Of a DNA stretch of 64,000 bases, positions 1,248-60,051 are shown in pieces. Positions within the stretch are counted from its first letter, which is position 1. Every line of letters begins with the position of its first letter. Position numbers and translations under genes: made by a program. The notes beneath the pieces are model-generated. The model was not told the origin of the DNA and searched no databases. It was given only the letters and a program-made list of their open reading frames with translations. This DNA is from Paracoccaceae bacterium (GTDB taxonomy: Bacteria; Pseudomonadota; Alphaproteobacteria; Rhodobacterales; Rhodobacteraceae): the NCBI GenBank assembly GCA_026706985.1, contig JAPOXR010000050.1:1-64000 (forward strand), given 5' to 3'.

Positions 1248-1511
1248 ATGAAGACTGCAGTGGAAATGGAAGACATGATTCGTGCCAAAGCAGATGAGGA
1301 CGAAGCATTTCGCGACAGGTTGCTGGAAGATCCGCGCCAGGCGATTCACGAAGCCACCGGGCTGACGGTGCCGGAAGGGTTTTCGATCAGTGTGCATGAA
1401 GAAAGTGCGACCGATTTTCATTTGGTCCTGCCGCCCGCCGGCAGTCGCCTTTCCGACGCAGAACTGCGGAGCGCCGCGGGAGGTTGGGCCCCGACCTCAG
1501 ACTCATACTAG
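1248..1511 (+). CDS. NHLP leader (nitrile-hydratase-like, proteusin-type) RiPP precursor peptide, about 87 aa, core WAPTSDSY
   Basis: MKTAVEMEDMIRAKADEDEAFRDRLLEDPRQAIHEATGLTVPEGFSISVHEESATDFHLVLPPAGSRLSDAELRSAAGGWAPTSDSY. Matches the NHLP pattern (DEAFRxRLLxDPxxAIxEATGLxVPEGxxxxVxEE...HLVLPP) followed by a canonical double-Gly site (L-12, E-8, L-7, G-2G-1). AAAGGA RBS at 1235-1240. ORF track start is 1218. Confidence 0.93.
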   Translation: MKTAVEMEDMIRAKADEDEAFRDRLLEDPRQAIHEATGLTVPEGFSISVHEESATDFHLVLPPAGSRLSDAELRSAAGGWAPTSDSY

Positions 1512-1924
1512 GAACAGTTGGGGTAGACACCACAACTTCACCTGTTAGCCAGCGGCTGTTGTCGGTGTGAACTCAGCCCGTTCCCGCCGCGCCGTTTAAG
1601 GGGCGGTCTAGCGGGGTGTTGTGTGGGCAGACAGGCATGACACCTCATACCATAGTGGTTTTGCTGCGAGAGCACGCATTCGTTTGCGGTGCCGGGTTAG
1701 TATGTCGAGGGTCCGCTCGGCAGTCTGCAGGCCATGAATGTGAAAGCGGCGGTGCCCCATCAAGTTCCTGATCATTCGGAACGTTTTCTCCTGTGACGTC
1801 ATACCGTACCGTGCGACGATGACACTGGCGGCATTCGCCGGCAGATTGGTGGTCGCTGACTGTTGAACAGTATTGCGGAGCTTGGCTGCTTCCGTCAAAT
1901 TGCGGCTTTGGCCTAGGTTTCTCC

Positions 1925-2092
1925 ATGTCGAGCAGAAATATTTTCCGCCGCGAAGCACTGATCCGCCACGTGCAACCCGAAGCTCTGGACGATTTGCTGC
2001 GGGTCACCGCACCGCGCGAAAGAGTTTTCCTTCTGGCGTTCGGAGTGTCCGTCACTTTCGTCTTGGTTGCCGCCGTCGCCATGTTGATTTGA
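1925..2092 (+). pseudogene. Short ORF (55 aa) resembling the N-terminus of an NHLM-type HlyD-like secretion protein, truncated after the TM helix
   Basis: Hand translation: MSSRNIFRREALIRHVQPEALDDLLRVTAPRERVFLLAFGVSVTFVLVAAVAMLI*. Matches the usual start of NHLM secretion proteins (FRxxALxRxxxPExLDxLxxVTxPRxxxxLxA + TM). The adaptor body is absent; the next ORF starts at 2105. Confidence 0.6.
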
Positions 2093-2104
2093 TTCTTCTT
2101 TCCG

Positions 2105-4324
2105 ATGAAAGGCGGTAACCACTCGGATCCGGCCACCGGTCCCACGGCTCCAAAGCGCAACGTCAGGCGGTGCCGTACGCCAATGGTCATGCAGCTGGAA
2201 TCCACCGACTGCGGCGCCGCATGTCTTGGCATCGTGCTCGCGTATTTCGGTTGTTGGGTGCCCCTCGAAGAACTGCGTGAAAGGTGTGGTATCGGGCGCG
2301 ACGGCGCGACCCTTGAGGATATTGCGCTCGCCGCCCGAAGCTATGGTCTCAAAGCAACCGGAAGGTCGTGTCAGCTCCGTGGACTGGCTGATCTGTCAAT
2401 GCCTATGATCCTGTTCTGGGGGTTCAGGCATTTCGTCGTGCTCGAAGGGATTAGGAAAGAGAACTATTACCTGAACGATCCTGCTGAAGGACATCGGGCG
2501 GTCGATGCCCGGACTTTCAACCGCAACTTCACCGGCGTCGGCCTGTTGCTCGAACCGGGCACCGGATTCATCGCCTCCGGCTCGCGCCCGGGCGTCATGA
2601 AGCGATTGTGGCCCTGGCTGCGCGGTTACCGCGCATTGCTGAGCCGCGCGACCGTTTTTGGCCTGCTGCTTGCGCTCACCTCACTTGCCTTGCCGTTTCT
2701 GCTTGCGCAATTCGTTGACCGCGTGCTGGAGAGTCGGCAGACGGATGCAGGCGGAATTCTGTTCATAGCCATGGCGGCAGCCGGCGGGCTTGCATTCCTC
2801 TTCACATGGTTGCAGATGCGCACCCTGAACGCATTGGTCCTGCGACTGTCCATTGACCAGTCGGACCGCTATCTGGATCACCTGCTTCGGCTTCCCATGC
2901 AGTTCTTTTCTCATCGTTTTGCCGGAGATCTGACCCTGCGTATGCGGCTGATAGACCAAGTTGCCGAGGCCGGAGCCGGCCAACTGGTGCGTCTCGGCGT
3001 TGATCTGGCGATGAGTGCGCTCTTCCTGTCTGCAATGCTTGTTTTCGACTTACTGCTGGGACTGACCGTGGCTACCCTGGGCGTCACTTGTGTGATTTCG
3101 GTTCATGTACTGACCAGCCTTCGCCGGGACCGGAACCATAAACTGCGGCGCGAGCAGGGAATCTTCGCCGGCATGAGTGCTGCAGGCCTGCGCATGATCG
3201 AGACCTTGCAGGCGACGGCCAGCGAGAACAAATTCTTTTCCCGCTGGAGCGGTCGACAGGCTCGCGAACTCGGCGCCAGACAGGAGTTCGTGGAACTTGG
3301 CCATGTCGCAGCTGCGCTGCCGCAGCTGTTCCAGTTGTTCGCGGCGGCTGTGGTGTTCGGCCTTGGCGGATGGCGTGCCATGTCCGGGGATATGAGCATT
3401 GGTGCCCTGATAGGATTCTATATTCTGGCCGGGAACTTTCTTCGCCCGCTATCCAGCATTGGCCAGTTCTCTGATCTGCTGGCGACGCTGGAGGCGGATC
3501 TGACAAGAATGGACGATGTCTTCAACTCGCCGAAGGCAGCCGCACTGGCGGGAAGTGACGAAGACCCGCATGGCCGGGTCCGTGCACTCGGCGGCCGCCT
3601 GCGGCTGGTCGGCCACTTGGAACTCCGTGCCGTAACCTTTGGTTTCCAACGGAAACGCCCACCCATCATCGAAGACTTCAACCTGACGATCGAGCCGGGT
3701 CAGCGCGTGGCCGTGGTGGGTGCCAGCGGCTCAGGAAAATCCACCTTGGCACTGTTGGCGGTCGGGCTGCATCAGCCTTGGTCCGGCGAGGTGCTGTACG
3801 ATGGACATTCAATCGCTGACATTCCCAGAGAAGTCTTTTGCCGGTCGGTCTCCATCGTCGGCCAGCGACCGGTGTTGTTCGCCACGAGCATTCGCAACAA
3901 TCTGACGATGTGGGACACGACGACTCCAGAACACCACGTGACCGCCGCCGCCAAGGATACGGCGATTCATGAGGAAATCACCAGTCGGCCAGGTATGTAC
4001 GAGTCAATGGTTGAGGAGCGAGGACACAATTTCAGTGGTGGCCAGCGTGCACGGCTCGAGATCGCCCGGGCCTTGGTCAGCAATCCGTCTCTTCTGATCC
4101 TTGATGAAGCGACCAGTATGCTCGACCCGCCCATTGAGTTGCGGATTGATGATCGTATCCGCCGTCGGGGCTGTTCATGCCTGGTTATCGCCCATCGCCT
4201 CAGCACAATCCGCGACGCCGATCTTATCGTTGTCATGGAACAGGGCCGCATCGTCGAGCGCGGCACCCATGATGAGCTATATGCCCATGACAGCATTTAC
4301 CGCAGGTTAATGAATGACGAATGA
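2105..4324 (+). CDS. NHLM-type bacteriocin export ABC transporter with N-terminal C39 peptidase domain
   Basis: C39 motifs MQLESTDCGAACL, FRHFVVLEG, YYLNDPAEG; Walker A GASGSGKST, signature FSGGQRARLEIARAL, Walker B LLILDEATSMLD. Confidence 0.95.
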   Translation: MKGGNHSDPATGPTAPKRNVRRCRTPMVMQLESTDCGAACLGIVLAYFGCWVPLEELRERCGIGRDGATLEDIALAARSYGLKATGRSCQLRGLADLSMPMILFWGFRHFVVLEGIRKENYYLNDPAEGHRAVDARTFNRNFTGVGLLLEPGTGFIASGSRPGVMKRLWPWLRGYRALLSRATVFGLLLALTSLALPFLLAQFVDRVLESRQTDAGGILFIAMAAAGGLAFLFTWLQMRTLNALVLRLSIDQSDRYLDHLLRLPMQFFSHRFAGDLTLRMRLIDQVAEAGAGQLVRLGVDLAMSALFLSAMLVFDLLLGLTVATLGVTCVISVHVLTSLRRDRNHKLRREQGIFAGMSAAGLRMIETLQATASENKFFSRWSGRQARELGARQEFVELGHVAAALPQLFQLFAAAVVFGLGGWRAMSGDMSIGALIGFYILAGNFLRPLSSIGQFSDLLATLEADLTRMDDVFNSPKAAALAGSDEDPHGRVRALGGRLRLVGHLELRAVTFGFQRKRPPIIEDFNLTIEPGQRVAVVGASGSGKSTLALLAVGLHQPWSGEVLYDGHSIADIPREVFCRSVSIVGQRPVLFATSIRNNLTMWDTTTPEHHVTAAAKDTAIHEEITSRPGMYESMVEERGHNFSGGQRARLEIARALVSNPSLLILDEATSMLDPPIELRIDDRIRRRGCSCLVIAHRLSTIRDADLIVVMEQGRIVERGTHDELYAHDSIYRRLMNDE

Positions 4325-7235
4325 GAACTACTCGGAAGACGCGCTGTCCGCGTTGTTCGTTTCCTCGGGCGAACACCGTGCTGTTGCAGGAAACCGCCCA
4401 ATTCAGCTGAACGATCCCGGTCTGGTCTGGTTCGTCGAGCAGGGCGCGATCGACATTCTGGAGACCGAGTTCGTTGACGGGCGAATGGACGTTCCGTACC
4501 GGCACGTGGCGCGCCTGGAAAGGGGCCGACTGGCATTCGGAGCGGACGGTTCCGGGCATTCTATGCTGCTCGTCGCAAAGGGAATTCAAGACACGGGCCT
4601 GCGTTGTCTACCGCGTGCGGCATTGCACGATGAAACAGCCGCCGGGGGAGACGCCGAAGGAATCGCTCCGGCTTTCATCGCCCAGCTGGACGCATGGATC
4701 GAAGATCTTGCCGGTGCGGTAGCGGCGGAAATCGAGGGCCGCCCCCGCATTGAGTCGTGGCTCGGTTACGGCAGCGAGCCGGGACAAGGAGTGTCTGCGG
4801 CCGAACAAGGGGTTGTATGGCTTGTCGCCGATCAGCTGGATGCATCTTTCCTCGATGTGGCCGAATCCCGACCTGGGTCACAGGGCTTGATGCCGGTAAC
4901 GCGAGACAGCTGGATCAAGCTGCGTGCAACCGGTGGCGTTGCATGCCTCCCGTCACACAAGCTCGGTGTGCAGTTGCTGCTTGAAGAGGGTTTACCCGAG
5001 TTCCACCGACTTGCTCTCAGCGCCGGATCGATTCAACGCCGCCTGCTGGTGGTGGACGACGCGAATCTGCAGGTGGCGTCGGCGGACCTGCGCCGCCGGG
5101 AAAAGTCCCTGGCCAGAAGAGGCTTGTCGGACCTGCTGGAATTCCGCACGCACTCCAAGGGCAAAGGCCCTGGCGGCCATACGGCACTTGACAAGGCCTT
5201 GCGGATTGTCGGTGCGCATGAAGGACTTGATATCCTTACACCGGCAGTATCCGGCGAAACCCAGCCTTCGCTGGACGATTATTGCCGGGCGTCCGCGCTG
5301 CGCCGGCGTGACGTACGGCTGACAGAGGAAGACCGCTGGTGGCTTGGTGACAGCGGCGCGATGCTGGCGTTCCGGCGTGGCCAGGGTCAGCCCGTGGTAC
5401 TTCTGCCCGGCCTTGCCGGACGCTATCGGATAATTGATCCTGAAACCGGCGAGTCCGTGCCCGCCAATGCCGGGACCGGCGCAGGTCTTCGGGACGCCTG
5501 CCTGCTATATCCCGTGCTGTCTTCCAATCGACCAGCCTTGATACGCGAGTTGCTTCACACAGGAATAGCGCCGATGACTGCCGAGATCGTCCGACTCACG
5601 GCCTTCGGCCTCGGCGCGGGACTGTTGGCTTTGACTCCGGCAATCGCGGTGAACCTGCTTGTTGAGCATGCTATTCCCGCCGGTGAGTTGGTTGCCGTCT
5701 TCCAGTTCTCCGGGATTCTGGCTGCAATCGCACTGACGGCGGCCTTGGCTCAGGTGCTGAGGGGCATGGCACTCATGCGCATTGAAGGGCGTCTCACCGC
5801 GCGCATCAGTGCCGCTGTCTGGGATCGTCTGCTGCGTCTGCGGCTGAGGTTTTTCCGCCGCTTCAGCGCCGGCGAGCTCGCGGCGAGATCAATGGTCTTT
5901 CAGGATGTCAGGGACAATGTAGCCGGGATTGCCGTCGATGCGGCATTGTCCACGCTGTTCGCCCTGCCGGCCCTCGGGCTGATGTTCCTCTACGATGCGG
6001 CTCTGGGCTTGATAGTCACCGCCCTGACCTTTGCGGCGCTCGGCGCAGCAACCATCTGCTGTAGCAGCATGATCAATCACCAGCGAAATTACCTGCGGTC
6101 ATCACGCCAGCTTCTGGGCGAATTACATCAGTTCCTGAGCGGAATCGCGAAGCTGCGCACGACCGGGGCCGAAGACATGGCCTTTGCCGCCTGGGCAAGG
6201 CGCTATCGCGAAAACAAGCATGCGGAAATCCAGCAGGCCATTCTGAGTGAATGGATTGTCGCCGTGGCGGCCGCAGTGCCCTTTGTTGGGAGCGCCGCCC
6301 TGTTCGCTGCCGTGGTTGCCCGGGGTGCGGACGGCCTCGCGACCGCCGACTTCCTTGCGGTTCACACCGCGGCCATGTTCCTGTTCCTGACCCTCGTCAT
6401 GCTGGGCAATTCAATCCGCTCGGTTGCCTTTGTCAAGCCGGCCTGCGAGCAGGTGCGGCCAATTCTGGCCGCCGAGACGGCGTCCGGCGCGGCACGCCGC
6501 GTACAACAGACTCTGCAGGGGGAAATCCTTCTCGACAGGGTCAGTTTCAGCTATTCGGAAAATGCCCCGACCTTGCGGGAGGTAAGCATCCACGCGAAAC
6601 CCGGCGAATTCATTGCCATAGTGGGTGAATCCGGTGCCGGTAAGAGCACTCTGCTCCGGCTCGTTCTTGGTTTGGAAAAGCCGAACGCCGGGGTGGTATA
6701 TTTCGATGGCCAGAGTCTCGATCAACTTGATGTCATCACGGTGCGAAAGCAGATCGGCGTCGCGCTGCAGGACGTGTTGCTGCAGAGCAGCACCATTCTT
6801 GACAACATCATCGGCAACGACACTGAATTGAACGAAGAAGATGCCTGGCGCGCGGCACGTCTGGCCGGAGTCGATGAAGATATCCGCGCCATGCCAATGG
6901 GAATGTATACCACGGTGGACGAAAACGCGGCGGCGTTCTCCGGCGGACAGGTGCAGCGAATCCGTATCGCTGCCGCGTTGATACACAATCCCCGCATCAT
7001 CCTTCTCGACGAACCCACAAGTTGGCTGGACACAAGCAGCCAAGCCCGCACAATGCAGGCGATAGAGGATTCCGCCAGTACGCGCCTGGTCATCGCACAT
7101 CGGCTGTCCACGATCCGCAGGGCGAACCGGATCTACGTGTTGCAAGCAGGTCGCGTTGCACAGATAGGTCGCTTTGAGCAACTAGCCGCCGAAGAGGGCC
7201 CTTTCCGCGACCTGGTCCAACGGCAACAGGCGTAA
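4314..7235 (+). CDS. NHLM-type bacteriocin export ABC transporter permease/ATPase (second subunit)
   Basis: 973 aa; long N-terminal domain, TM region, Walker A GESGAGKSTLLRL, signature FSGGQVQRIRIAAAL, Walker B IILLDEPTSWLD. Overlaps the upstream ORF by 11 nt. Confidence 0.93.
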   Translation: MTNENYSEDALSALFVSSGEHRAVAGNRPIQLNDPGLVWFVEQGAIDILETEFVDGRMDVPYRHVARLERGRLAFGADGSGHSMLLVAKGIQDTGLRCLPRAALHDETAAGGDAEGIAPAFIAQLDAWIEDLAGAVAAEIEGRPRIESWLGYGSEPGQGVSAAEQGVVWLVADQLDASFLDVAESRPGSQGLMPVTRDSWIKLRATGGVACLPSHKLGVQLLLEEGLPEFHRLALSAGSIQRRLLVVDDANLQVASADLRRREKSLARRGLSDLLEFRTHSKGKGPGGHTALDKALRIVGAHEGLDILTPAVSGETQPSLDDYCRASALRRRDVRLTEEDRWWLGDSGAMLAFRRGQGQPVVLLPGLAGRYRIIDPETGESVPANAGTGAGLRDACLLYPVLSSNRPALIRELLHTGIAPMTAEIVRLTAFGLGAGLLALTPAIAVNLLVEHAIPAGELVAVFQFSGILAAIALTAALAQVLRGMALMRIEGRLTARISAAVWDRLLRLRLRFFRRFSAGELAARSMVFQDVRDNVAGIAVDAALSTLFALPALGLMFLYDAALGLIVTALTFAALGAATICCSSMINHQRNYLRSSRQLLGELHQFLSGIAKLRTTGAEDMAFAAWARRYRENKHAEIQQAILSEWIVAVAAAVPFVGSAALFAAVVARGADGLATADFLAVHTAAMFLFLTLVMLGNSIRSVAFVKPACEQVRPILAAETASGAARRVQQTLQGEILLDRVSFSYSENAPTLREVSIHAKPGEFIAIVGESGAGKSTLLRLVLGLEKPNAGVVYFDGQSLDQLDVITVRKQIGVALQDVLLQSSTILDNIIGNDTELNEEDAWRAARLAGVDEDIRAMPMGMYTTVDENAAAFSGGQVQRIRIAAALIHNPRIILLDEPTSWLDTSSQARTMQAIEDSASTRLVIAHRLSTIRRANRIYVLQAGRVAQIGRFEQLAAEEGPFRDLVQRQQA

Positions 7236-8258
7236 GCCACCATAGGCCTTGGCCCGAACGCCGTCTCCCTCAAGCGACAGCTTGACATGGTTGATTCCCA
7301 TATAGAGCTCGAACGCCCCGTGTTCGCTGAAAACTGTGCGCCGCCGGGGCCACGAAAGCAGGCCCTCGGCCTTGGCCGGGATGCATAATCGACGGTCTAC
7401 CAGGCGCTGGATCACCGGTTTCCAGTCAAGTTTCGAACTGAATAACCAAGCTGCGAACAAGGCTCGGTAGCTCGTTGCCTCTTCCGGCAGTGCATGCATT
7501 TCAAAGCCAAGACGCGGCAACGCGCCGTTCTCATTGATATCGAAGAGAAGCAGGAAGCGTCCGCAAAGATCCGCCATGCCTGATAGTAAGTGATTCACTG
7601 CGGTTATCGATCCAGGCCATTCCAGCCGCCTGAGCAGGGCCCCGACCTCACGGGGTTTCATGTCCGCCACGAGCAACCTGACCGATCTGGGCGTGCGGTT
7701 CGGGGTCGCCCCGACAAATGCAAGCTTGGCATCCGCCGGCAAGACATCAAGTGCCCACGCCAGCGCACGCCATTCGGGCACGCTGTCATTGCGTGCTGAC
7801 GCCTGTGCAACCGTGTGCGCAATTGCCGCGGGCCCGGCGCCGGTCGCGCCCTTGCCTTGGCCAGGCAGCAATCGGAGATAGATTACCGGTGAGGGAGGGT
7901 CCGTCAGCCCGGCCGGCACTCCTATGATGTCATAGGCCAGCAATACAGATTCGAGCCAATGATCGGTGGCGGATGGGTCATTCAGATGCGTGGCAAGCCA
8001 GGCGTCAACCGATGCCGGTGCCGCTGCTTCACCGCGGGCAATGTGGTGGTGCGTAATCCGCTCTTCTGAAACCGGGATCGAAAAGTCCGCCGCCGGCGCT
8101 GACTCGTCCAGCCTGAACTCAAAGCCGCATAGCGAGGTCGACGCGGCGGCTGGAAAGTTGCCAACCCGCTCAAGCAAACGGATCCAGCCTTGTCCGGCGA
8201 GCAAGGATCGGGGGATCTGGCTGCGCAATCCTGTAAGAACATCCTCGAAGCGCTCCAT
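7182..8258 (-). CDS. Uncharacterised 358-aa protein, candidate RiPP-associated factor
   Basis: Full-length ORF between exporter and methyltransferase; 3' end overlaps the exporter gene by 54 bp. C-terminal ...LSWPRRRTVFSEHGAFELYMGINHVKLSLEG. No confident family assignment. Confidence 0.75.
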   Translation of the reverse strand: MERFEDVLTGLRSQIPRSLLAGQGWIRLLERVGNFPAAASTSLCGFEFRLDESAPAADFSIPVSEERITHHHIARGEAAAPASVDAWLATHLNDPSATDHWLESVLLAYDIIGVPAGLTDPPSPVIYLRLLPGQGKGATGAGPAAIAHTVAQASARNDSVPEWRALAWALDVLPADAKLAFVGATPNRTPRSVRLLVADMKPREVGALLRRLEWPGSITAVNHLLSGMADLCGRFLLLFDINENGALPRLGFEMHALPEEATSYRALFAAWLFSSKLDWKPVIQRLVDRRLCIPAKAEGLLSWPRRRTVFSEHGAFELYMGINHVKLSLEGDGVRAKAYGGLRLLPLDQVAERALFGG

Positions 8259-8279
8259 CAGCTCCTGTCCCCAATCAGG

Positions 8280-9065
8280 TCAGTTGGCTGTCTTGGTGGC
8301 GACTATCTCTCCCCAATGTATGGGTAAGACCGGAAAGGTTCGAAAGCGCGGGAGACCGAATTTCGCTTCGGTGGGTTTCGGAATGATCATCGGCGTGAGG
8401 TCCAGCACCGACGTCACGGTAAAGCCGGTTGCCGCAAGCGCTGCCGCCATGTCTTCCATAGGCGGCGTAGGCTGCACATAGATCCTGCGGAATGCGTCTA
8501 TCTGCTTCCATTCCTGCACGGTCATTTCTCCTGCCCTGCAAAACACGTCTTTGATGTAAACCTTCCCGTCATCGCGCAGCACCCTGGAAATCTCAGCAAA
8601 GAGCTTCTCAAGCTGAAAGGAGTATCCGGCAGATTCGAGAAACAGCACGCAGTCGAATTTCCGGTCCGGAAACGGCAACTCGTGGTAGTCCCCCACCTGC
8701 ACGCAAACCCGCCCTGCGGCCGGAGAATCGGCAATCAGCTTTTGTGCAATTTGGGCTTGGTAGGAAGAGATGGTAATTCCATGCACTTCCAGGTCAGGAA
8801 CATGCAGGGCCGCATAGAGGGCCGGGCCGCAAACGCCGCAGCCGGCATCAAGAACCACCTGGCCGCTGCGAAGACCGGACCGCTTCACGATGGTGCGGTT
8901 GTTGTCGTCATATGACTGGCCTTCAGAGTCGTCGTCGCACAAGATCCCTGCCTGGATAGTGGTGCCGAATTTCAGATAATGGTCGGTCGTTTCGCTCCAA
9001 TAGCGAATCTGCTCTTCCTTCCACCATTGCGCGCTTCCAAGGCCTTCCGCGACACGATTCTTCAT
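8280..9065 (-). CDS. SAM-dependent class I methyltransferase (sterol/tocopherol C-methyltransferase-like fold)
   Basis: Motif I VVLDAGCGVCGPALYAA; LPFPDRKFDCVLFLESAGYSF; ISRVLRDDGKVYIKDVF. The ORF extends to 9362, but the N-terminal extension looks non-homologous; likely start MKNRVAEGLG at 9065. Confidence 0.85.
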   Translation of the reverse strand: MKNRVAEGLGSAQWWKEEQIRYWSETTDHYLKFGTTIQAGILCDDDSEGQSYDDNNRTIVKRSGLRSGQVVLDAGCGVCGPALYAALHVPDLEVHGITISSYQAQIAQKLIADSPAAGRVCVQVGDYHELPFPDRKFDCVLFLESAGYSFQLEKLFAEISRVLRDDGKVYIKDVFCRAGEMTVQEWKQIDAFRRIYVQPTPPMEDMAAALAATGFTVTSVLDLTPMIIPKPTEAKFGLPRFRTFPVLPIHWGEIVATKTAN

Positions 9066-9419
9066 TGACTCCAAATCCCATTGGCACGGAACCATACGCA
9101 GGAAGGGTATCGGCATGCAAGTTCGGCGAAGCGACCGTCCATAGCCCACCCGGCTGATCACTTGCGAACGGACGAAGTCGCCCGCCATTCGGGTATACCG
9201 GGTTCCACGGCGATGCCCCGAGGATCTCAATGGAATGGTGCGGCGATTCAGTTTGTGCCGCAACCGGTCGATACTGACCCTGAAGTGATGCCGCCATGCA
9301 TCGACCTTCCGGTGGCGATGCGGGATCGGGTTCCCGAAACGCCTTGGCAATCCGGCCTGCATCGGACCAGCACCTCCGCTTGACGCTATTCGGTGCGTTC
9401 GATAGCTTGATTTCGATCA

Positions 9420-10406
9420 GTGAATTATACAGGTATCGGAAATCTGCAAATGTGGGGACGTTTGCCGCCACTCCTGTCCGCGCCTTTCGTGATTTCGGAT
9501 GGAGTCTTCATCAGCCCGAAATACCGGCATACACGATTGAATGCCGAGGAAGCGTTCAATCCGGATGGCAGCCTGGACGCGGTTTGCCGCAGGACGATAC
9601 GGATCCACGACGCCCGTTCGCTCACACCGGCACCAAGCATTGAACGCGAGGGCTTCCAATTGATCGAGGCACCGGTTGATCTGGATTTTGGAGATCCCGC
9701 CCAGGTGAACGGCATCTATCGCAAGCATTGCGAACATCTTGTGAAAACCGCTACCGGATGCCAATCCGCCGAAGCTGTGCAGCACGGTTTTCGCGCCGGA
9801 AGAGCTTTAGGTCCTGCCGGTCAGGGTCTCTACGGAGTGGGCGCTCACGCCGACCATTCTCCAATGATAGAGGACTTTGTAGATGTGCCGGAGGGGCAGC
9901 ACTTCGCCCTGTTCAACATCTGGCGTGGAACGAATCCCGATCGCAATATTGAATCGGGGCCGCTGGCGCTGTGCGACCGTTCCACGGTCTCAGCGGACGA
10001 TATCGTTTACGCCGATTGCCTGCGACGCTCTGAACCGCGCACCCGCGTGATCAATTGCCGCTTGATTCACGATGCCGGTCAGATCTGGTATTATTTTCCA
10101 CAAATGAAACCGGGCGAGGCGCTGATTTTCAAACAATACGATTCGCGTCTGGAACACGCTGCTTCGCGCACGGTCTTTCATACAGCATTCCAGGATCCGA
10201 CTACCCCGGAAGATGCGCCATTGCGGGAATCGGTCGAAGTCCGCGTTGTGGCGGTGTTGCCCGAGACCGACCCGGACCGCGAGGGCAGAAAAGCCAGGTT
10301 CCAGGCCGAAGTGCCGAGCAGACGGCTTGACGGCACGGTTTCGACCTGGTGCCAAGAACCGGAGGTTGACTGGTCATACAGCGGCAGTCGCAGTAGGTTG
10401 CCGTAA
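9420..10406 (+). CDS. CmcJ/NvfI-family oxidoreductase (putative Fe/2OG-type hydroxylase/methoxylation partner)
   Basis: Family-typical pattern VHDAR-like 'IHDARSLTPAPSIEREGFQL', 'GAHADHSP', 'FALFNIWRGTN...GPLALCDRSTVSADDIVYAD', 'YYFPQMKPGEALIFKQYDS', 'FHTAFQDP'. Start GTG 9420 or ATG 9450. Confidence 0.8.
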   Translation: MNYTGIGNLQMWGRLPPLLSAPFVISDGVFISPKYRHTRLNAEEAFNPDGSLDAVCRRTIRIHDARSLTPAPSIEREGFQLIEAPVDLDFGDPAQVNGIYRKHCEHLVKTATGCQSAEAVQHGFRAGRALGPAGQGLYGVGAHADHSPMIEDFVDVPEGQHFALFNIWRGTNPDRNIESGPLALCDRSTVSADDIVYADCLRRSEPRTRVINCRLIHDAGQIWYYFPQMKPGEALIFKQYDSRLEHAASRTVFHTAFQDPTTPEDAPLRESVEVRVVAVLPETDPDREGRKARFQAEVPSRRLDGTVSTWCQEPEVDWSYSGSRSRLP

Positions 10407-10603
10407 TTCCAGCGCATTGGTGTCTGCCCTATGGAATCGGTCTCTTTGGATTGCTTGTGGAGCCACCTGCAATTTGAGTCTGGCGTTTTTTCCGAACCTG
10501 ATGAAGGCCGGACTCTGCTTCGTGGCTCCGTTGAAGCCTGCGACACCGCATCTCACTGACCAGGCACGGTTTGCTTCAGGCAACTTTCACCACGGGCCCG
10601 GAT

Positions 10604-12094
10604 TTAATCCGCGGGTGCCTTGCAGTATTCGTCAATGAAGCGCTGGTGAGACGGAAGCCCTTCGACCAGGCTGCCGACCCGGTCACGGATACCGCCGAGG
10701 AAGTCGCCGAGATTCTGATCGCTCATCGAGTTGACACCGGGATGATACTGTTCGGGCACCAGCCCCTGACCGAGCATCACCTGCAGCCACGAGGTCTCGC
10801 CGAAAAGTTCTTCTGATGTCTTGAACACCCGCCCTCCCTGTCTGAACAGTTCGATGCGGTGCCTGAGAGAATCCGGAATCTCCATCATGCGGCATTGCCG
10901 CCAAAACGCTGAATCCGTCCGCTCAGTCACATGGTAGTGCAGGATGATGAAGTCCCGGATGTTTTCGGTCTCGATCTGCATCTGCTTGTTGAACTCAACG
11001 ATATCGGGATCACGGATGCCGTTGTTCGGAAACATCTGCGCCAGACGGGTGATGCTGCGCTGTATCAGGTGAATGCTGGTTGATTCCAAGGGCTCGATGA
11101 AACCGGACGCCAGCCCCACGGCCACGCAGTTCTTGTACCAGTGCCTGCGCCTCTGGCCGGCTCTGAAACGAATCACGCGGGGCTCTGTGAGCAGGCGCCC
11201 CCGAACACTGTCGAGCAGCCGGACCTTGGCCTCCTCGTCGGACCAGTGTCGGGTGCTGAATACGATGCCGTTCCCGACACGATGCTGCAAGGGTATGCGC
11301 CACTGCCAACCTGCCTCGCAGGCGATGGCACGCGTGTAGGGGCGCGGCGGTTCTGTCGGTTCGGTCTGGACTGCAATGGCGCTGTCGCAAGGCAGCCAGT
11401 GACTCCAGTCGTCGTAGCCGGCATGCAGAGTCCGTTCAATCAGCAGCCCGCGAAAACCTGTACAGTCAATGAACAGGTCTCCTTCGATCAGTTGCCCGGA
11501 ATGCAGGCGTAAGCCGGAAATAAAGCCGTTGCCTGGATTTTGCATCACCTGCTCGATTCGGCCTTCCCGCCGGACAACGTCGTGCCTTTCGGCCAACTCA
11601 CGCAAAAACCGCGCATAGAGGGAAGCATCAATGTGGAAGGCATAATCAAGCAGGCAGTTAAGCATCAGCCCGAACCGCCCACTCTGTGCCGCCGCCCACT
11701 CGTTGCAGTATTCTCCGAACTCGTATGCGATGCCCAGTTTCCTGCCTTTGAGCCAGAAGTGATGGAACTCGGCTAACCCCCTGCTTCGTCCGGAATGGCC
11801 AAAGACGTGGAAGTAGTTTCCCCCGAGTTTCCGCCAGTTCTCGAAACAGATGCCAAGCTTGAACGTGCCTTGAACAGCACGCATGAATTCCGGCTCTCTG
11901 ACCGACAGGACACGGTGCTGCCATTTCAGCGGGGGAATCGTCGCTTCCCCTACCCCCACCGTGCCGATCTCCTCTGACTCGATCAGAGTGATGTCAAAAG
12001 TCTTGCCGAACAGCTTTGCGAGTGTCGACGCGGTCATCCACCCGGCAGTGCCGCCGCCCGCGATGACAATTTTACGAATTCTCCCGTTGCTCAA
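10604..12094 (-). CDS. Flavin-dependent tryptophan halogenase
   Basis: GGGTAGWMTAS (FAD GxGxxG), GEATIPPLKW, TFKLGICFENW, and the WxWxIP halogenase motif 'WQWRIPLQHRVGNGIVFS'; C-terminal GLASGFIEPLESTSIHL. Confidence 0.95.
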   Translation of the reverse strand: MSNGRIRKIVIAGGGTAGWMTASTLAKLFGKTFDITLIESEEIGTVGVGEATIPPLKWQHRVLSVREPEFMRAVQGTFKLGICFENWRKLGGNYFHVFGHSGRSRGLAEFHHFWLKGRKLGIAYEFGEYCNEWAAAQSGRFGLMLNCLLDYAFHIDASLYARFLRELAERHDVVRREGRIEQVMQNPGNGFISGLRLHSGQLIEGDLFIDCTGFRGLLIERTLHAGYDDWSHWLPCDSAIAVQTEPTEPPRPYTRAIACEAGWQWRIPLQHRVGNGIVFSTRHWSDEEAKVRLLDSVRGRLLTEPRVIRFRAGQRRRHWYKNCVAVGLASGFIEPLESTSIHLIQRSITRLAQMFPNNGIRDPDIVEFNKQMQIETENIRDFIILHYHVTERTDSAFWRQCRMMEIPDSLRHRIELFRQGGRVFKTSEELFGETSWLQVMLGQGLVPEQYHPGVNSMSDQNLGDFLGGIRDRVGSLVEGLPSHQRFIDEYCKAPAD

Positions 12095-12802: not shown

Positions 12803-15493
12803 CTATTGCAACACCAGATACTGATGGCCCACCACGGTTCCCTTATCGCGAATACCATGGCTTTCGCAGTGGGCAACGCATTCTGTGTAAGTATCAGCCA
12901 CCCGGAACCACGTTTTAGCGATTCGAGCCAACTCTTTCGCCATATCGCACTTCTTGCTAGATCCTAGATGAAAAACAGCCACACCGTCAGATTTTAGCCT
13001 CTCTCGACACTGGCGCAGGATGGGATAGTACACCTCAAAGCTGCGCTTTTGCCGTTCGTCGACGAACGCTAGTGGCCGCTCCCGAAAGTCGTTCGCTTCC
13101 CAACCGCAAAACCACAGGCGCATCCAGTTCCCGAGATGGAACCGCGTGCTGTCGAAGAAAGGCGGAGAGGTCACTATCGCGTCCAGATTATCAACCGCGG
13201 CCGGCCACCATGCTGTAGCGTCTTGAAAAATTGAATAGCCAGGAACAAAGTCATCCGGTATCGGTGTTGCTAGACTACGCTTCACCTTGTCGCGAAGCCT
13301 TGGAATCAAGGCGCGGTATTCTGCATTACCGCTCGGTGCAAACGGCGTGATGGGATGCGACCGGCGACTAAGCGCATAGGGGCGATTGCCGTGAAGGATG
13401 TGCAGCAGACAAGCAAAGACCAAAGATTGTGATGCGTTTTCAGGTGGATTATCGAGGAAAAATCTACGCGCTAGCAGTACTTCTTCAAATGTCCTTTCGT
13501 GAAAATAGGAGGCCAGAACTCCATTGAACCGAATCAACTCAGCAGACTTGCGCTCGTCCGCCTGTAACCCTTGTGTTTTCAGATAATCTTCCAGCCTCCC
13601 GACGGTTCTTTCACATACAGTAGCGATGCACTGCCCGATCTTTCCGTCCGTGATGTGAACTGCGGGCGGCGATATGTCGAAACCCCAGCATTCGACACCA
13701 TGGAGCGCGGCCTCAAACGGGATCGTGCCAACGCCCGAGAACGGGTCTAGCAATCGGCCACCGGGCGTCGTGAAAGTCCTGACCAGATGCGCAGCCAGTG
13801 ACGGCTTCATTTTACCTTGGTAGGAGCAGAGCGAATGGCGCGGATGTCCCCAGTTGCGCTTTGCATACTCTCCCTGCTGATGCGGCAAGAACTTCTTGAA
13901 TTCTGACCACGCTACTGACCAGCTATTCGATTGATTCCTGATACCGTGGGTGCGCGTGCGCTTCCCCGGCTTCGGAGCGAATACAAGCAATTTCTGTGTC
14001 AGCTTTGCTTGACTCCGCGAGTACCGCTGACGCAGCGTTATCTCATTGGTGAGATCAAACCCGGCTGCGTCCAGCGACTGCGCAATGAATTGGTCCGTCG
14101 GAACATGCACGCCGGCGTACGCGGAATCGCCAATATCGATGACGATCGTTCCACCCTTCCGAGTATGCACGGCCAACGCATGGAGAATCATGTGCATCTC
14201 TGAAGCGAAGCACGAAACCATGCGAGGTATTCGCATATCGTAGGCATGCGCTTCGAGGGCCTCTACGACCGGTGCGGCAGCGGGTGGCATTTCGCCGACA
14301 GGCTTGCCCACGGTTACATCGTTAATCCCCACTGTCATGGAGCCAAAGCGGAATCTGGATAAGTCTTCCCGTTCCTTCAGGCAACGCAGGAACCACAGTT
14401 CGACCTTCGTATTCCTGAAATAGTTGGTACCATTGAGATAAGGTGGGCTTGTGATCACTGTATCGACGGAAAGCGCGGGAATACGGTCCAAGTTTTTCGC
14501 GTTCTCCAGTAGAAGCACCGGCGTATGGTCGATCAGCGAAAGGTCTTCAATGTCGCGGGCCATCACAGTGAGTGCCGCGCGAATTTCCGTCCGCAACTCG
14601 ATGCGATCGCCAACCAGTTCCTGCTCGGTCTTGAACCTCAGATCACCCCGTCGAATCAGGCGAGATGCTGGGATCAGAGCGCGAAGGACCGCGATGGTCA
14701 AGAAGCGCGCTGACAGCGGAGCGGTACATCCAATGTCGTCAATCAACGTCCGGCAACGCAGTACATCGGCGAACACCTCTTTATCAAAAAATGTGCTATC
14801 GCCAAACACTGCATTGTAGGTCTGCTTCAACCGAAAGTCCTGCTGAGTGGCGTCGATCCGCTCGTTCAGAGTCTCGCCGAGCCCTGCAAGCTCGTCCGCC
14901 AGCTCAGTGCGACTGCGGTCACGCAATCGCAGGGCGATGACCTTCGATGCTGTGAGGAACTGGAGAAGCGGGTTGATCTCGGCGTAATAGGCTCTTTTGC
15001 CGAGACGGCACGCGGTGAGCGCCGTTGTGCCTGTTCCGCCGAAAGGATCGAACACGCTTCTCGCGTTCGGGCAATACCTGCCGATGACCGACTCGACGAA
15101 TGCAGGGGAATATCCCTCCAGCCAAGGATACCACCCATGCAGCGGCTCGTGACGGCCACCGCAGAAGGTTGCCTGAATTGGGTCGAAGGCGATGGGGTTG
15201 GGAGCCTCAAATCCCGGCAGCCACGCGGCGGCCGATTGTCCGTTGGTCTCAAGATGACCACGGAGAATCGAGAGGCAGAATGCGTTGAGAGTCTTGTCCT
15301 CGGCCTGAGCATGCTCCTGGAGGGTTACGAAGCTCTCGTAACCGAGAGCATTTCGGAGCGAGTCGCTGGAAAGATGGCGTACCGCGTTGAAAACGTTCTC
15401 GTCTCTCTTGCCGAAGGCGAGAGTCAAACTGGATCGCCCCGACGCCGATTTCGGACAGTCCCTGAAGTAGACGTTCTTGTACGACTGCGCCAT
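12803..15493 (-). CDS. Fused double DNA methyltransferase (two N4C/N6A-type MTase domains)
   Basis: Two sets of motifs in one ORF: DPFGGTGTTALTA + VITSPPYLNG, and DPFSGVGTIPFEAAL + IVTSPPFFDS. ORF called to 15529 from TTG; likely ATG (MAQSYKNV) at 15493. Confidence 0.9.
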   Translation of the reverse strand: MAQSYKNVYFRDCPKSASGRSSLTLAFGKRDENVFNAVRHLSSDSLRNALGYESFVTLQEHAQAEDKTLNAFCLSILRGHLETNGQSAAAWLPGFEAPNPIAFDPIQATFCGGRHEPLHGWYPWLEGYSPAFVESVIGRYCPNARSVFDPFGGTGTTALTACRLGKRAYYAEINPLLQFLTASKVIALRLRDRSRTELADELAGLGETLNERIDATQQDFRLKQTYNAVFGDSTFFDKEVFADVLRCRTLIDDIGCTAPLSARFLTIAVLRALIPASRLIRRGDLRFKTEQELVGDRIELRTEIRAALTVMARDIEDLSLIDHTPVLLLENAKNLDRIPALSVDTVITSPPYLNGTNYFRNTKVELWFLRCLKEREDLSRFRFGSMTVGINDVTVGKPVGEMPPAAAPVVEALEAHAYDMRIPRMVSCFASEMHMILHALAVHTRKGGTIVIDIGDSAYAGVHVPTDQFIAQSLDAAGFDLTNEITLRQRYSRSQAKLTQKLLVFAPKPGKRTRTHGIRNQSNSWSVAWSEFKKFLPHQQGEYAKRNWGHPRHSLCSYQGKMKPSLAAHLVRTFTTPGGRLLDPFSGVGTIPFEAALHGVECWGFDISPPAVHITDGKIGQCIATVCERTVGRLEDYLKTQGLQADERKSAELIRFNGVLASYFHERTFEEVLLARRFFLDNPPENASQSLVFACLLHILHGNRPYALSRRSHPITPFAPSGNAEYRALIPRLRDKVKRSLATPIPDDFVPGYSIFQDATAWWPAAVDNLDAIVTSPPFFDSTRFHLGNWMRLWFCGWEANDFRERPLAFVDERQKRSFEVYYPILRQCRERLKSDGVAVFHLGSSKKCDMAKELARIAKTWFRVADTYTECVAHCESHGIRDKGTVVGHQYLVLQ

Positions 15494-15519
15494 GGCCCCT
15501 CGATCTGAATCACTCTGTC

Positions 15520-15556
15520 GTGATACCAACTACCATACTATGGTAGTTGGTATCAC
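15520..15556. promoter_or_regulatory. 18-bp perfect inverted repeat with 1-nt centre between endonuclease and methyltransferase genes
   Basis: GTGATACCAACTACCATA-C-TATGGTAGTTGGTATCAC read directly. Confidence 0.85.
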
Positions 15557-15628
15557 GAGTCAATAGGCCCTCAAGGAAATCGGCGCTAGAGAGGTCGGCG
15601 GGGCAGGGAGGCGTGGGCAAGTCCCGCA

Positions 15629-16885
15629 CTATGCGACTCTGTCGGCAACCCGTAGCCATTCGGCGCGGGCAATCACGTAGCTAGCCGACCTACGTTCCTC
15701 GACTTGGAGCGCTGCCACGGGATTCTGGATCATGCGCAGGCGCGGCGAGACGCTGTCCATGTGCTCGACGAGCGCTAGGACGTAACTGTCACCGTGTTCC
15801 TGCGCTGCCCGGTATTCCGTCGGCGTCAGACTTACCGCGCCCAGCGCGGCAACACTACTCTTCACCTCAACCACCATCGCTCGATCTTGCCGCCGTGCCC
15901 AGAGATCAAAACCGTACCCGCGACGATTGGTGTAGAAGGCGACCTCCCAACCCTGGGAACGGAGTACCTTCGCGACGAAGCTTTCCGCATCCGCACCATC
16001 ATTGCTCACGCGCGTCGCGGGCGGCGAAAGCAATTCCTCGACCTCTGGAGGCTCCGGTATCCGAAGTTGCGGCGGGGGTGCGGGTGCCACGGGAGCAGCG
16101 GCGGGCACAGCTTGTGCCCCGACCCAATCGGCGGTCAGCAGGAGCCGCGTTCCTTCGCGTACCATGCTGGTGCCGAGCGAGAACAAAGAGAATGTGTGCA
16201 ACCCGACATCGCGCCAGTTCGAATACGCCTTGTCCCCTGGTATCCGGTCGCGGACCTCGGAATGAAGCGTATCTTGTTCCTCAGGCGTAAGCGCGCGATA
16301 AGCCGTAATCGCGGCGGCTGCCTTGGACGCTTCGCCTCTGCGTCGTATACGAGAGACGAAGAAGTCGAACTCGTTCCGGTCGATGTATCCCTCGCAGCGC
16401 TTCAGAACCTGTTTCGTTACCTTATATGCTCGGAGGTCGAAGTCCCCATATTGTCCGACTCGGTTGCGTGGTGTCCAAGGCTCGACCGCGAACCGGATGG
16501 CGGACAGGGATTGTTCAAGCACTGCCGCCGGATCATCTGTATAAGCAAGGTCTCGTCCCCGATCTGTAAGGACGGTCTGGTGCCATCTCGTGCCGTTCAC
16601 GCGTTGCAAGAGCTGCAACGGCTTGTCCATGACCAGCAAGTGATGACGCCGCAGTTGTACGCCCGGGTCGTCAACTTCCGTTCCGATGATCCTCGCGAGT
16701 CTCTGATAGTCGTGGTCAGTGAGCTGAATGCTGCCTCCGCCGCCCCGGTTCTCCAAATATTCGGCGATGGCCTTCAGCCAAGAAACCGCGACATGGACGC
16801 GAGTGATAACGAACCAGCCACGGTCGCCCCGGTCTCCCTCATCAAGGCGGTCCACGAGTGTGCGGCGGACCCCTTCCAGACTCAT
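15629..16885 (-). CDS. Putative restriction endonuclease with C-terminal Mrr/DUF3883-like PD-(D/E)XK domain
   Basis: C-terminal 'AESFVAKVLRSQGWEVAFYTNRRGYGFDLWARRQDRAMVVEVKSS' fits a D-x(n)-ExK nuclease core; adjacent to the MTase. Confidence 0.75.
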   Translation of the reverse strand: MSLEGVRRTLVDRLDEGDRGDRGWFVITRVHVAVSWLKAIAEYLENRGGGGSIQLTDHDYQRLARIIGTEVDDPGVQLRRHHLLVMDKPLQLLQRVNGTRWHQTVLTDRGRDLAYTDDPAAVLEQSLSAIRFAVEPWTPRNRVGQYGDFDLRAYKVTKQVLKRCEGYIDRNEFDFFVSRIRRRGEASKAAAAITAYRALTPEEQDTLHSEVRDRIPGDKAYSNWRDVGLHTFSLFSLGTSMVREGTRLLLTADWVGAQAVPAAAPVAPAPPPQLRIPEPPEVEELLSPPATRVSNDGADAESFVAKVLRSQGWEVAFYTNRRGYGFDLWARRQDRAMVVEVKSSVAALGAVSLTPTEYRAAQEHGDSYVLALVEHMDSVSPRLRMIQNPVAALQVEERRSASYVIARAEWLRVADRVA

Positions 16886-57884: not shown

Positions 57885-59369
57885 TCAGGTATATTTCGTG
57901 CCCGCTGTCCGCATGAGTTCCACAATGCGGTCAATCTGCAAATGCTGTTCGAGATGTGCGGCCAGTGAATCCAGCGCCGCCTCAACCTGCGGCCGGTAGC
58001 TGATTCCGCCGCCCCTGGCACCGATTCTCCGTAGCCAGGATTTTCTGAATCCATCATCGGCAAACAATCCGTGAAGATATGTGCCCGATATGCGGCCATC
58101 AGTTGAGACCGCACCATCACTGCGGTGGCGGCCATTCTCCTCAATGGTGGCGAAAGGCCTTGCCGTATCGCTGCCCCGCGTCTGACCGATGTGAATTTCG
58201 TAGACACGAATCCGGTCCCGACTGTCGCCCGCACTTGCCGTGACCTCGCCTACCCTTTTCTCCGCCTGCATCACGGTTTCAACATCCAGCAGTCCGAGAC
58301 CGGCCGCTTCGCCCGCACAACCCTCGATACCCCCGGGGTCGCGGATAACCTTGCCCAGCATCTGGTAGCCGCCGCAGATTCCCAGCACGTGGCCACCGCG
58401 GCGGATATGGGCATGAATATCAACATCCCAACCCTGTCCGCGTAAAAAGGACAGATCCGCACGCGTCGATTTACTTCCCGGCACAATGACCAGGTCGGTG
58501 TCACCGGGGAGCGCCTGCCCCGGCTCCAGCATCGAAACGGAAATATCGGGTTCGAACCGGAGCGGATCCAGATCATCAAAATTGGCAATCCGCGGCAGGG
58601 ACAGGCAGGTAATTCGGATACCTCCCCGTTCCGCCGGCCTGTTCCTGAGGTCCTCAGAATCTTCCGATGGCAGCCACCGGACTTCCTGCAGCCACGGAAC
58701 CGTGCCCAGATGCGGCCAGCCGGTTCTGGCTTCAATGTCCTGTTCCCCGTCCCGGAACAGGCTGGGGTCACCCCGGAATTTATTGATGGCAAATCCGCAC
58801 ACCAGTTCCGCATCCGCACTGTCCAGCACCACCTTGGTGCCGACCAGCTGCGCAATGACACCTCCTCTTTCGATATCTCCCACGATCATCACCGGTATTT
58901 CGGCGGCCCGCGCGAAACCCATATTTGCGATATCGTCGCGCCGGAGATTGGTCTCCGCGGCGCTGCCTGCGCCTTCGACGATGACAATGTCGTGACGCGC
59001 CGCCAAGCGCCCATAGCTTTCCAGGACAGCGCGCATCAATCCCGGCTTAAGGGCGGCATAGTCGCGGGCTTTGACAGTCGTCAGACGCCTGCCCTGGACA
59101 ATGATCTGGGCACCGGTTTCTGTTTCCGGTTTCAGCAGCACCGGGTTCATATCCGCATGTGCTTCAATCCCGCATGCCTGCGCCTGCAGCTGCTGCGCCC
59201 GGCCGATCTCGGCCCCCTCCGCCACCGCCGCGGCGTTATTAGACATGTTCTGCGGCTTAAACGGACAGACGTTCAACCCCCTCCGGACCATAGCGCGGCA
59301 AAGTCCGGTCACGATAACCGATTTGCCGACATTTGATCCGGCCCCCTGAACCATGAGGGATATGGCCAT
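57885..59369 (-). CDS. cobQ: Cobyric acid synthase
   Basis: MVQGAGSNVGKSVIVTGLCRAM; PFKPQNMSNNAAAVAEGAEIGRAQQLQA; ICGGYQMLG; GTYLHGLF. Confidence 0.97.
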   Translation of the reverse strand: MAISLMVQGAGSNVGKSVIVTGLCRAMVRRGLNVCPFKPQNMSNNAAAVAEGAEIGRAQQLQAQACGIEAHADMNPVLLKPETETGAQIIVQGRRLTTVKARDYAALKPGLMRAVLESYGRLAARHDIVIVEGAGSAAETNLRRDDIANMGFARAAEIPVMIVGDIERGGVIAQLVGTKVVLDSADAELVCGFAINKFRGDPSLFRDGEQDIEARTGWPHLGTVPWLQEVRWLPSEDSEDLRNRPAERGGIRITCLSLPRIANFDDLDPLRFEPDISVSMLEPGQALPGDTDLVIVPGSKSTRADLSFLRGQGWDVDIHAHIRRGGHVLGICGGYQMLGKVIRDPGGIEGCAGEAAGLGLLDVETVMQAEKRVGEVTASAGDSRDRIRVYEIHIGQTRGSDTARPFATIEENGRHRSDGAVSTDGRISGTYLHGLFADDGFRKSWLRRIGARGGGISYRPQVEAALDSLAAHLEQHLQIDRIVELMRTAGTKYT

Positions 59370-59385
59370 GAAGCAGCCTCCCGGC

Positions 59386-60033
59386 TCAGTACTCGATGCC
59401 GGGCTGCGCCTTTATTCCGGAGCGGAAAGGATGCTTGATCAATGCCATTTCCGTCGCCAGGTCGGCAATCTCAAGCAGTTCCTCAGCGGCGTTACGGCCG
59501 GTCAGAATCACATGCGTATCGGGTGGTTTCTGTTGCAGCAGAAACGCACGGATTTCAACAACATCCAGATAGCCATAGCGGATCGCGATGTTGATTTCAT
59601 CCAGCAGCACCAGCCTGGCACCGGATCCGCCGATCAGTTCCTTCGCCCGGTTCCAGGCCGCAGCGGCCATCTCGATATCGCGCGATTTGTCCTGGGTTTC
59701 CCAGGTGAATCCTTCGCCCATCGTGTGAAATTCACATATCTCGGCAAAGTGCAGGTTGATGAGGTCGCGCTCTCCCGTCGCCATTCCACCCTTGATGAAC
59801 TGCACAACGGCACAGGGAATGCCATGTGCGATGCAGCGGAACACCATCCCGAACGCAGACGACGACTTACCCTTGCCCTTACCGGTGTGGATGATGATCA
59901 GCCCCTTCGCTTCGGTCTTCGTCGCCATGATCTTGTCTCTGGCGGCTTTTTTCTTGGCCATTTTCCGCTTGTGGCGCTCAAATTCCTCATTCATCCGGGT
60001 TTCTCCCTGACCGCATGCGCTATCCGACAGCAA
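59386..60033 (-). CDS. cobO: Cob(I)yrinic acid a,c-diamide adenosyltransferase
   Basis: GLIIIHTGKGKGKSSSAFGMVFRCIAHG; VVQFIKGG; VLLDEINIAIRYGYL; VILTGRNAAEELLEIADLATEM. Confidence 0.97.
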   Translation of the reverse strand: MLSDSACGQGETRMNEEFERHKRKMAKKKAARDKIMATKTEAKGLIIIHTGKGKGKSSSAFGMVFRCIAHGIPCAVVQFIKGGMATGERDLINLHFAEICEFHTMGEGFTWETQDKSRDIEMAAAAWNRAKELIGGSGARLVLLDEINIAIRYGYLDVVEIRAFLLQQKPPDTHVILTGRNAAEELLEIADLATEMALIKHPFRSGIKAQPGIEY

Positions 60034-60051
60034 TTCTCACTGCTGCAAAAA

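Follow-up and report, generated by a model that had tools for sequence, protein, structure and literature searches.

What does the compact gene cluster at positions 1248-12094 of this 64,000-nucleotide stretch of Paracoccaceae DNA (the window) make, and what does a 358-residue protein of no known family contribute to it? The cluster is a proteusin cluster, encoding a ribosomally synthesized and post-translationally modified peptide (RiPP) with an NHLP leader. The explanation that best fits the locus as a whole, and that we consider moderately probable from its sequences, is that the product is a proteusin octapeptide that is halogenated, prenylated, oxidized and methylated. To our knowledge, no characterized proteusin combines halogenation, prenylation, 2-oxoglutarate-type oxidation and methylation on one 8-mer.

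The precursor gene (1248..1511, plus strand) encodes 87 residues that score 66.5 bits against TIGR03793 (cut-off, 50.9 bits). The boundary AAGG|WAPTSDSY leaves a core of eight residues with Trp at position 1, and the leader contains the segment LSDAEL, a motif of the LXXXXL type. Besides this precursor, the first-pass annotation of this DNA had named two exporters, a 358-residue protein of no recognized family, a methyltransferase, a CmcJ-like oxidoreductase and a tryptophan halogenase, and each was recovered where it had been placed; a short open reading frame (ORF) encoding a mini-HlyD protein had been missed, and the methyltransferase ORF had been over-extended. The expectation that synteny would be conserved around a W-containing core was borne out as well, since the eight ORFs, mini-HlyD included, occur in the same order and orientation in three Boseongicola loci from sponge metagenome-assembled genomes (L027-L029), where the core is WAPTSSSY and the proteins are 75-87% identical to those of the window (70% for mini-HlyD). 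All eight ORFs are under purifying selection: in window-Boseongicola pairs, with dS of about 0.54-0.68, dN/dS was 0.12 for the precursor, 0.15 and 0.21 for the exporters, 0.17 for the halogenase, 0.18 for the 358-residue protein, 0.20 for the CmcJ-like enzyme, 0.26 for the methyltransferase and 0.34 for mini-HlyD. Gene content, protein families, synteny and selection are thus established directly, as are the halogenase phylogeny and the linkage of the 358-residue family to NHLP precursors described below.

Parts of the cluster also occur without the rest. The backbone of exporters, CmcJ-like enzyme and 358-residue protein was found again at L136, L137, L139 and L212 and on contig C36 of the same genome; the core is FAPGGDSW at L137 and IAPTDDSY at L139 and L212, and no precursor was identified on the L136 and C36 stretches. 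A squalene-hopene-cyclase-like gene is present at L137, L139 and L212, with halogenase and methyltransferase absent from the stretches read, whereas the window and Boseongicola loci have the halogenase and methyltransferase and no cyclase. Within this xAPxxDS[YW] group, Trp at core position 1 accompanies the halogenase and the halogenase-less IAPTDDSY loci have no Trp, and from these sequences Trp1 and the halogenase appear to occur jointly. The pairing is not strict, however: FAPGGDSW ends in Trp at L137, where the stretch read has no halogenase.

The halogenase (10604..12094, minus strand) scores 618 bits against PF04820, and its GxGxxG motif, its WxWxIP motif (residue 263) and the catalytic Lys and Glu are all present in an alignment with 6Y1W and BrvH. 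Among solved structures, those closest to it are 6Y1W (625 bits), 9LUQ (534 bits) and BrvH 6FRL (472 bits), with MibH 5UAO at 180 bits. It falls outside the group of PrnA, RebH and similar free-Trp enzymes, a placement that the first-pass annotation would have counted against a peptide substrate. In a tree of 164 sequences built by a quick method, it forms a single clade (SH-aLRT 100) with the Boseongicola enzymes and a second halogenase of the same genome, on contig C61. The same annotation had also counted kinship with enzymes for unrelated substrates against such a role, and here the outcome is less favorable: this RiPP-linked clade lies within gammaproteobacterial halogenases of the Xcc4156/BrvH type, whose identity to the window enzyme reaches 70%, and was apparently acquired by transfer from gammaproteobacteria. 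No NHLP precursor was found at the TonB/SapC loci of these relatives; at L031, where the neighbors were checked, they are a TonB receptor, a second halogenase, SapC and Cupin_8.

The first-pass annotation had offered the peptidyl-Trp brominase SrpI as a parallel, and on this point the tree disagrees. Halogenases from loci with LCCCW cores, termed SrpI-like here because of the GLCCCW core at their locus and not by comparison with the SrpI sequence, are set apart by a long branch in a clade of their own; they are 24-26% identical to the window enzyme, in agreement with the split, whose depth the long branches render uncertain. Moreover, Trp is at core position 1 in the window and not C-terminal, as SrpI uses. 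Judged by phylogeny, the window halogenase falls outside the SrpI type, and flavin halogenases appear to have been recruited into proteusin loci twice, from two lineages. The window enzyme would then come from a second line of candidate leader-guided peptide halogenases, one that arose independently and is potentially useful for biocatalysis because its members are close to enzymes with solved structures. As to the halide, BrvH and Xcc4156 are indole-type enzymes. Given the behavior of that clade and the fact that SrpI is an obligate brominase (PMC12615548), bromination is favored by analogy.

The origin of the halogenase bears on whether it, the methyltransferase and the CmcJ-like enzyme instead constitute a neighboring small-molecule pathway, acting for example on free indole or tryptophan, that merely adjoins the proteusin locus. 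Its nearest homologues outside RiPP loci are non-RiPP enzymes, and it is nested among those of the TonB/SapC loci, which weighs against a peptide substrate; likewise, all three genes lie in transcription units separate from the precursor, the gene strands implying three to four units rather than a single operon. The case for the complete pathway is further narrowed by the near identity of the three Boseongicola loci, which represent one lineage only. Nevertheless, we regard an independent small-molecule pathway as quite improbable, since the order and orientation of eight ORFs are kept in a diverged lineage and the C61 halogenase, an independent enzyme of 66% identity, also adjoins an NHLP precursor (core IGDIDTW). 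In addition, CmcJ-like enzymes are recurrent with NHLM exporters (L136, L137, L139, L153 and L212), and at three of these loci, L137, L139 and L212, an NHLP precursor was seen too.

The 358-residue protein (7182..8258, minus strand), listed as unknown at first pass, has no Pfam or NCBIfam match, and two relatives likewise have none in NCBIfam. Its association with proteusins is nonetheless close. Strong homologues occur in 11 of 385 genomes of the class, each of which also has an NHLP precursor that passes the cut-off; at the loci read, the distance between the two genes is usually between a few hundred bases and a few kilobases, and every GLCCCW-core locus read carries a member of the family adjoining the precursor. 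No member was found in the viral contigs scanned, and DMATS (PF11991), sought as a seed for profile comparison, was found in none of 349 Pseudomonadota genomes. When two AlphaFold models of the protein, built from only four close sequences, were compared with the PDB by Foldseek, prenyltransferases with the alpha-beta-beta-alpha (ABBA) fold made up all 19 top matches of one model and 10 of the 11 top matches of the other, the peptide-modifying KgpF and LimF among them. Weak homologues sit in ORFs of about 690-735 residues; one of these, from another family of the same class (L122:493-2667), is a 725-residue fusion of a 358-residue-family domain to a C-terminal class II terpene cyclase domain that matches SQHop_cyclase, the prenylcyclase 6IJ1 (6.8e-34) and MstE (1.6e-31). 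Relatives also neighbor genes of the squalene-hopene-cyclase-like, geranylgeranyl-reductase and MpaB/Lcp types. None of the fold matches is significant by itself, but their agreement, taken together with the cyclase fusion and these neighborhoods, makes it likely that the protein is an ABBA peptide prenyltransferase.

Several results weigh against this assignment. Both models are poor (pLDDT 41 and 39), and the fold matches have E values of 0.08-0.75, none below 0.05. No Pfam prenyltransferase family matches any of 18 family members, and a PDB sequence search with a profile of the family gave no prenyltransferase, its Protein A matches looking compositional; membership of a known sequence family was ruled out by the negative Pfam, NCBIfam and PDB profile searches. 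An internal repeat was not detected in the protein, profile self-comparison giving trivial overlaps only. Finally, RCCC, RCCCCC and AGCM cores at loci of the family have no aromatic residue at the C terminus.

On such grounds the product could be a proteusin that is halogenated, oxidized and methylated but not prenylated, in line with the first-pass proposal, with the 358-residue protein serving as a leader-binding protein, chaperone or other partner, possibly a catalytically dead ABBA-like barrel. The lack of a sequence match to any known prenyltransferase model would fit this role, as would the fact that the family, like a general partner, accompanies NHLP loci with differing enzymes (YcaO, halogenase, CmcJ) and with non-aromatic cores such as RCCC. 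We consider this explanation unlikely, however. ABBA prenyltransferases dominate the fold matches in two models, the MstE-like cyclase fusion and isoprenoid-type neighbors suit catalysis better than a general adaptor, and SrpI requires no trans-acting recognition protein (PMC10858898).

If the 358-residue protein is a prenyltransferase, which residue would it modify? At loci of the family, the last core residue is W, Y or F in most cases, whereas in genomes that lack a strong homologue (L154-L156) it is A, S, G, D or Q, a comparison of related sequences rather than independent samples. Since Tyr8 is the sole aromatic residue of IAPTDDSY, the sequence points to position 8 as the prenyl acceptor in that group. 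The reverse assignment, in which Trp1 receives the prenyl group and the halogenase targets Tyr8 or the same Trp, has precedents in the use of Trp by NctPC and MppC (PMC13290415, PMC12715784), and the C61 core IGDIDTW offers a single aromatic residue for both enzymes. This arrangement is possible, albeit doubtful: the IAPTDDSY loci have the 358-residue protein yet no Trp, and the clade relatives of the halogenase are indole-type enzymes.

Taking Tyr8 as the favored acceptor, we propose a pathway in which the chemical steps, their order, the acceptor residues, the halide, the prenyl length and the ABBA assignment are all predictions. The structured NHLP leader would bind the enzymes through its LSDAEL segment and present the core; the flavin halogenase would halogenate, and most likely brominate, the indole of Trp1; the ABBA-type protein would prenylate the C-terminal aromatic residue, Tyr8; the CmcJ-like enzyme would hydroxylate or otherwise oxidize the core; and the methyltransferase would act on the peptide or on the attached prenyl group. 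Cleavage after GG by the C39 exporter is expected to yield the WAPTSDSY core, and the modified octapeptide would leave through the two NHLM-type ABC proteins together with mini-HlyD. The small linear halogenated peptide first suggested for this locus would therefore probably be only part of the product, given the probable prenyltransferase. The idea of a distinct tailoring set stands for the halogenase, CmcJ-like enzyme and methyltransferase, unlike the set of the srp proteusin cluster, and left out the 358-residue protein. The reported absence of other maturation enzymes was upheld: tblastn found no YcaO relative within the window, and its contig has no radical SAM gene.

The oxidizing enzyme (9420..10406, plus strand) belongs to the CmcJ/NvfI family of oxygenases; it scores 179.5 bits against NF041278 (cut-off, 80 bits), matches NvfI 7EMZ at 1.8e-14 and retains an intact HxD...H iron site (H143, D145 and H253). 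The SAM-dependent methyltransferase matches Methyltransf_11 at 1.9e-16, with 6UV6 and 3BUS as its nearest solved structures. Its minus-strand frame is open to 9362, but because the Boseongicola match spans only the last 285 residues the real start is probably near 9065, giving a gene at 8280..9065.

Of the export genes, all on the plus strand, the first ABC exporter (2105..4324) carries a C39 peptidase (Peptidase_C39, 2.6e-33) and matches NHLM_micro_ABC1 best at 826 bits, and the second (4314..7235) matches NHLM_micro_ABC2 best at 654 bits. Both scores are slightly under the equivalog cut-offs (853 and 709 bits, respectively), and by sequence the two are divergent members of the NHLM ABC1 and ABC2 types. 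The mini-HlyD protein (1925..2092, 55 residues; weak TIGR03794 match, 15.3 bits) corresponds to the N-terminal and transmembrane part of the NHLM HlyD adaptor. Since it is kept as a short ORF in relatives, both in the Boseongicola loci and, in similar form, upstream of ABC1 at L136 and L153, it is probably a genuine mini-adaptor and not debris. NHLM exporters at the equivalog cut-off and a full HlyD adaptor, neither of which the window has, are usual companions of proteusins and not requirements.

How does the cluster compare with known systems? In srp, the core of SrpE is LCCCW and SrpI recognizes an LXXXXL-type leader motif (PMC10858898). The window shares with srp an NHLP leader with such a motif, a flavin halogenase, ABC exporters and an origin in sponge-associated bacteria, and is predicted to resemble it in using the leader to direct halogenation of a short core. 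At loci whose core is that of SrpE (GLCCCW), a 358-residue-family homologue likewise adjoins the precursor. The window cluster differs in lacking YcaO, in having WAPTSDSY where srp has LCCCW, in the placement of Trp (first in the core, not last), in drawing its halogenase from another PF04820 clade and in adding a CmcJ-type oxygenase and a methyltransferase; membership of the srp type was ruled out by the missing YcaO, the different core and the different halogenase clade, while the leader and the type of exporter mark the cluster as a proteusin. The literature searched contains no description of the window's gene combination or of a prenyltransferase in srp clusters, and two key subscription papers outside that search may annotate the gene.

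Other systems share single features. The mpp lanthipeptide cluster of Moorena combines the brominase MppI with a leader-dependent ABBA-type prenyltransferase, MppC (PMC12715784, PMC12615548), and thus resembles the window in directing both enzyme types, the prenyltransferase being predicted for the window, to one RiPP with a long structured leader; it has a Nif11-type leader, a lanthionine synthetase and a macrocycle, none of which belongs to the window cluster. NctPC is a peptide prenyltransferase-terpene cyclase that geranylgeranylates Trp (PMC13290415). Its described architecture is like that of the remote L122 homologue, fused to an MstE-like cyclase, whereas the window protein stands alone. 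PalX is an NHLP precursor whose C-terminal Trp is prenylated in the PalX/PalQ system (PMC10853753), and the window resembles it in its NHLP precursor and octapeptide core with an aromatic end, predicted here to be prenylated; PalQ, however, has the isoprenoid-synthase fold rather than ABBA, and its three-gene cluster has no halogenase. Among halogenases, MibH and the SrpI-like enzymes share PF04820 and action on peptidyl Trp with the proposed role of the window enzyme and differ from it as described above.

A broader proposal, whose chances we judge to be even, is that the 358-residue family comprises new stand-alone ABBA-barrel peptide prenyltransferases, leader-guided and specific to proteusins, that also operate in the srp-type (LCCCW) clusters, which are common in sponge microbiomes and have a cryptic product; sponge proteusins would then be terpenylated (some also cyclized) as well as brominated, with halogenation recruited at least two times from unrelated lineages. 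This offers a testable explanation for an orphan gene that all LCCCW (srp-type) loci examined have beside their precursor. If the prenyltransferase reading is true, mass-spectrometric hunts for the missing sponge proteusins have sought the wrong masses.

Members of the family also occur in other settings. At L147 (G409:C1:1012001-1032000, 6279-11889), eleven tandem NHLP precursors, all with Trp-ended cores, surround one 358-residue-family gene in mid-array, likely a combinatorial precursor set for one modifying enzyme. At LCCCW loci, an NHLP leader is fused to a squalene-hopene-cyclase-like domain (L142:10724-12025, with equivalents at L141, L144-L146, L150, L204 and L208-L210); in this fusion the leader domain may not be a precursor but a module through which an enzyme docks.

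The genome of the window (3.14 Mb in 75 contigs) holds a second type of proteusin locus at C68:20000-38000 (L108, 1-9504), with YcaO, an RND transporter and an NHLP precursor with the core RCCC. Two 358-residue-family genes there flank an MpaB/Lcp-type oxygenase and adjoin a flavoprotein of the geranylgeranyl-reductase family. Three relatives of the same genus also carry such genes at NHLP/YcaO loci. At the second halogenase locus, on C61, the family gene is broken at the contig end (L107, 1-60 and 60-905); because the first 59 bases recur at other contig ends with 98-100% identity, the sequence suggests a mobile element inside this gene, and intact copies of the family are present elsewhere. 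C36 and C61 were considered as two halves of one locus, but the sequences do not support this: the contigs do not overlap, and they differ in their identity to the G436 homologue. An NHLP match on C37 was rejected as a precursor; it appears to be a true nitrile hydratase alpha subunit with the motif CTLCSCYPW.

Adjoining the cluster, window positions 12803-16885 encode a 908-residue DNA methylase-like protein (N6_N4_Mtase) and a 418-residue protein similar to NOV_C/Mrr-like nucleases, a pair that may serve in restriction or defence. At its far end (57888-63771), the window carries cobalamin biosynthesis genes, including those for a CobN-type chelatase and a CobQ/CobB-type amidotransferase.

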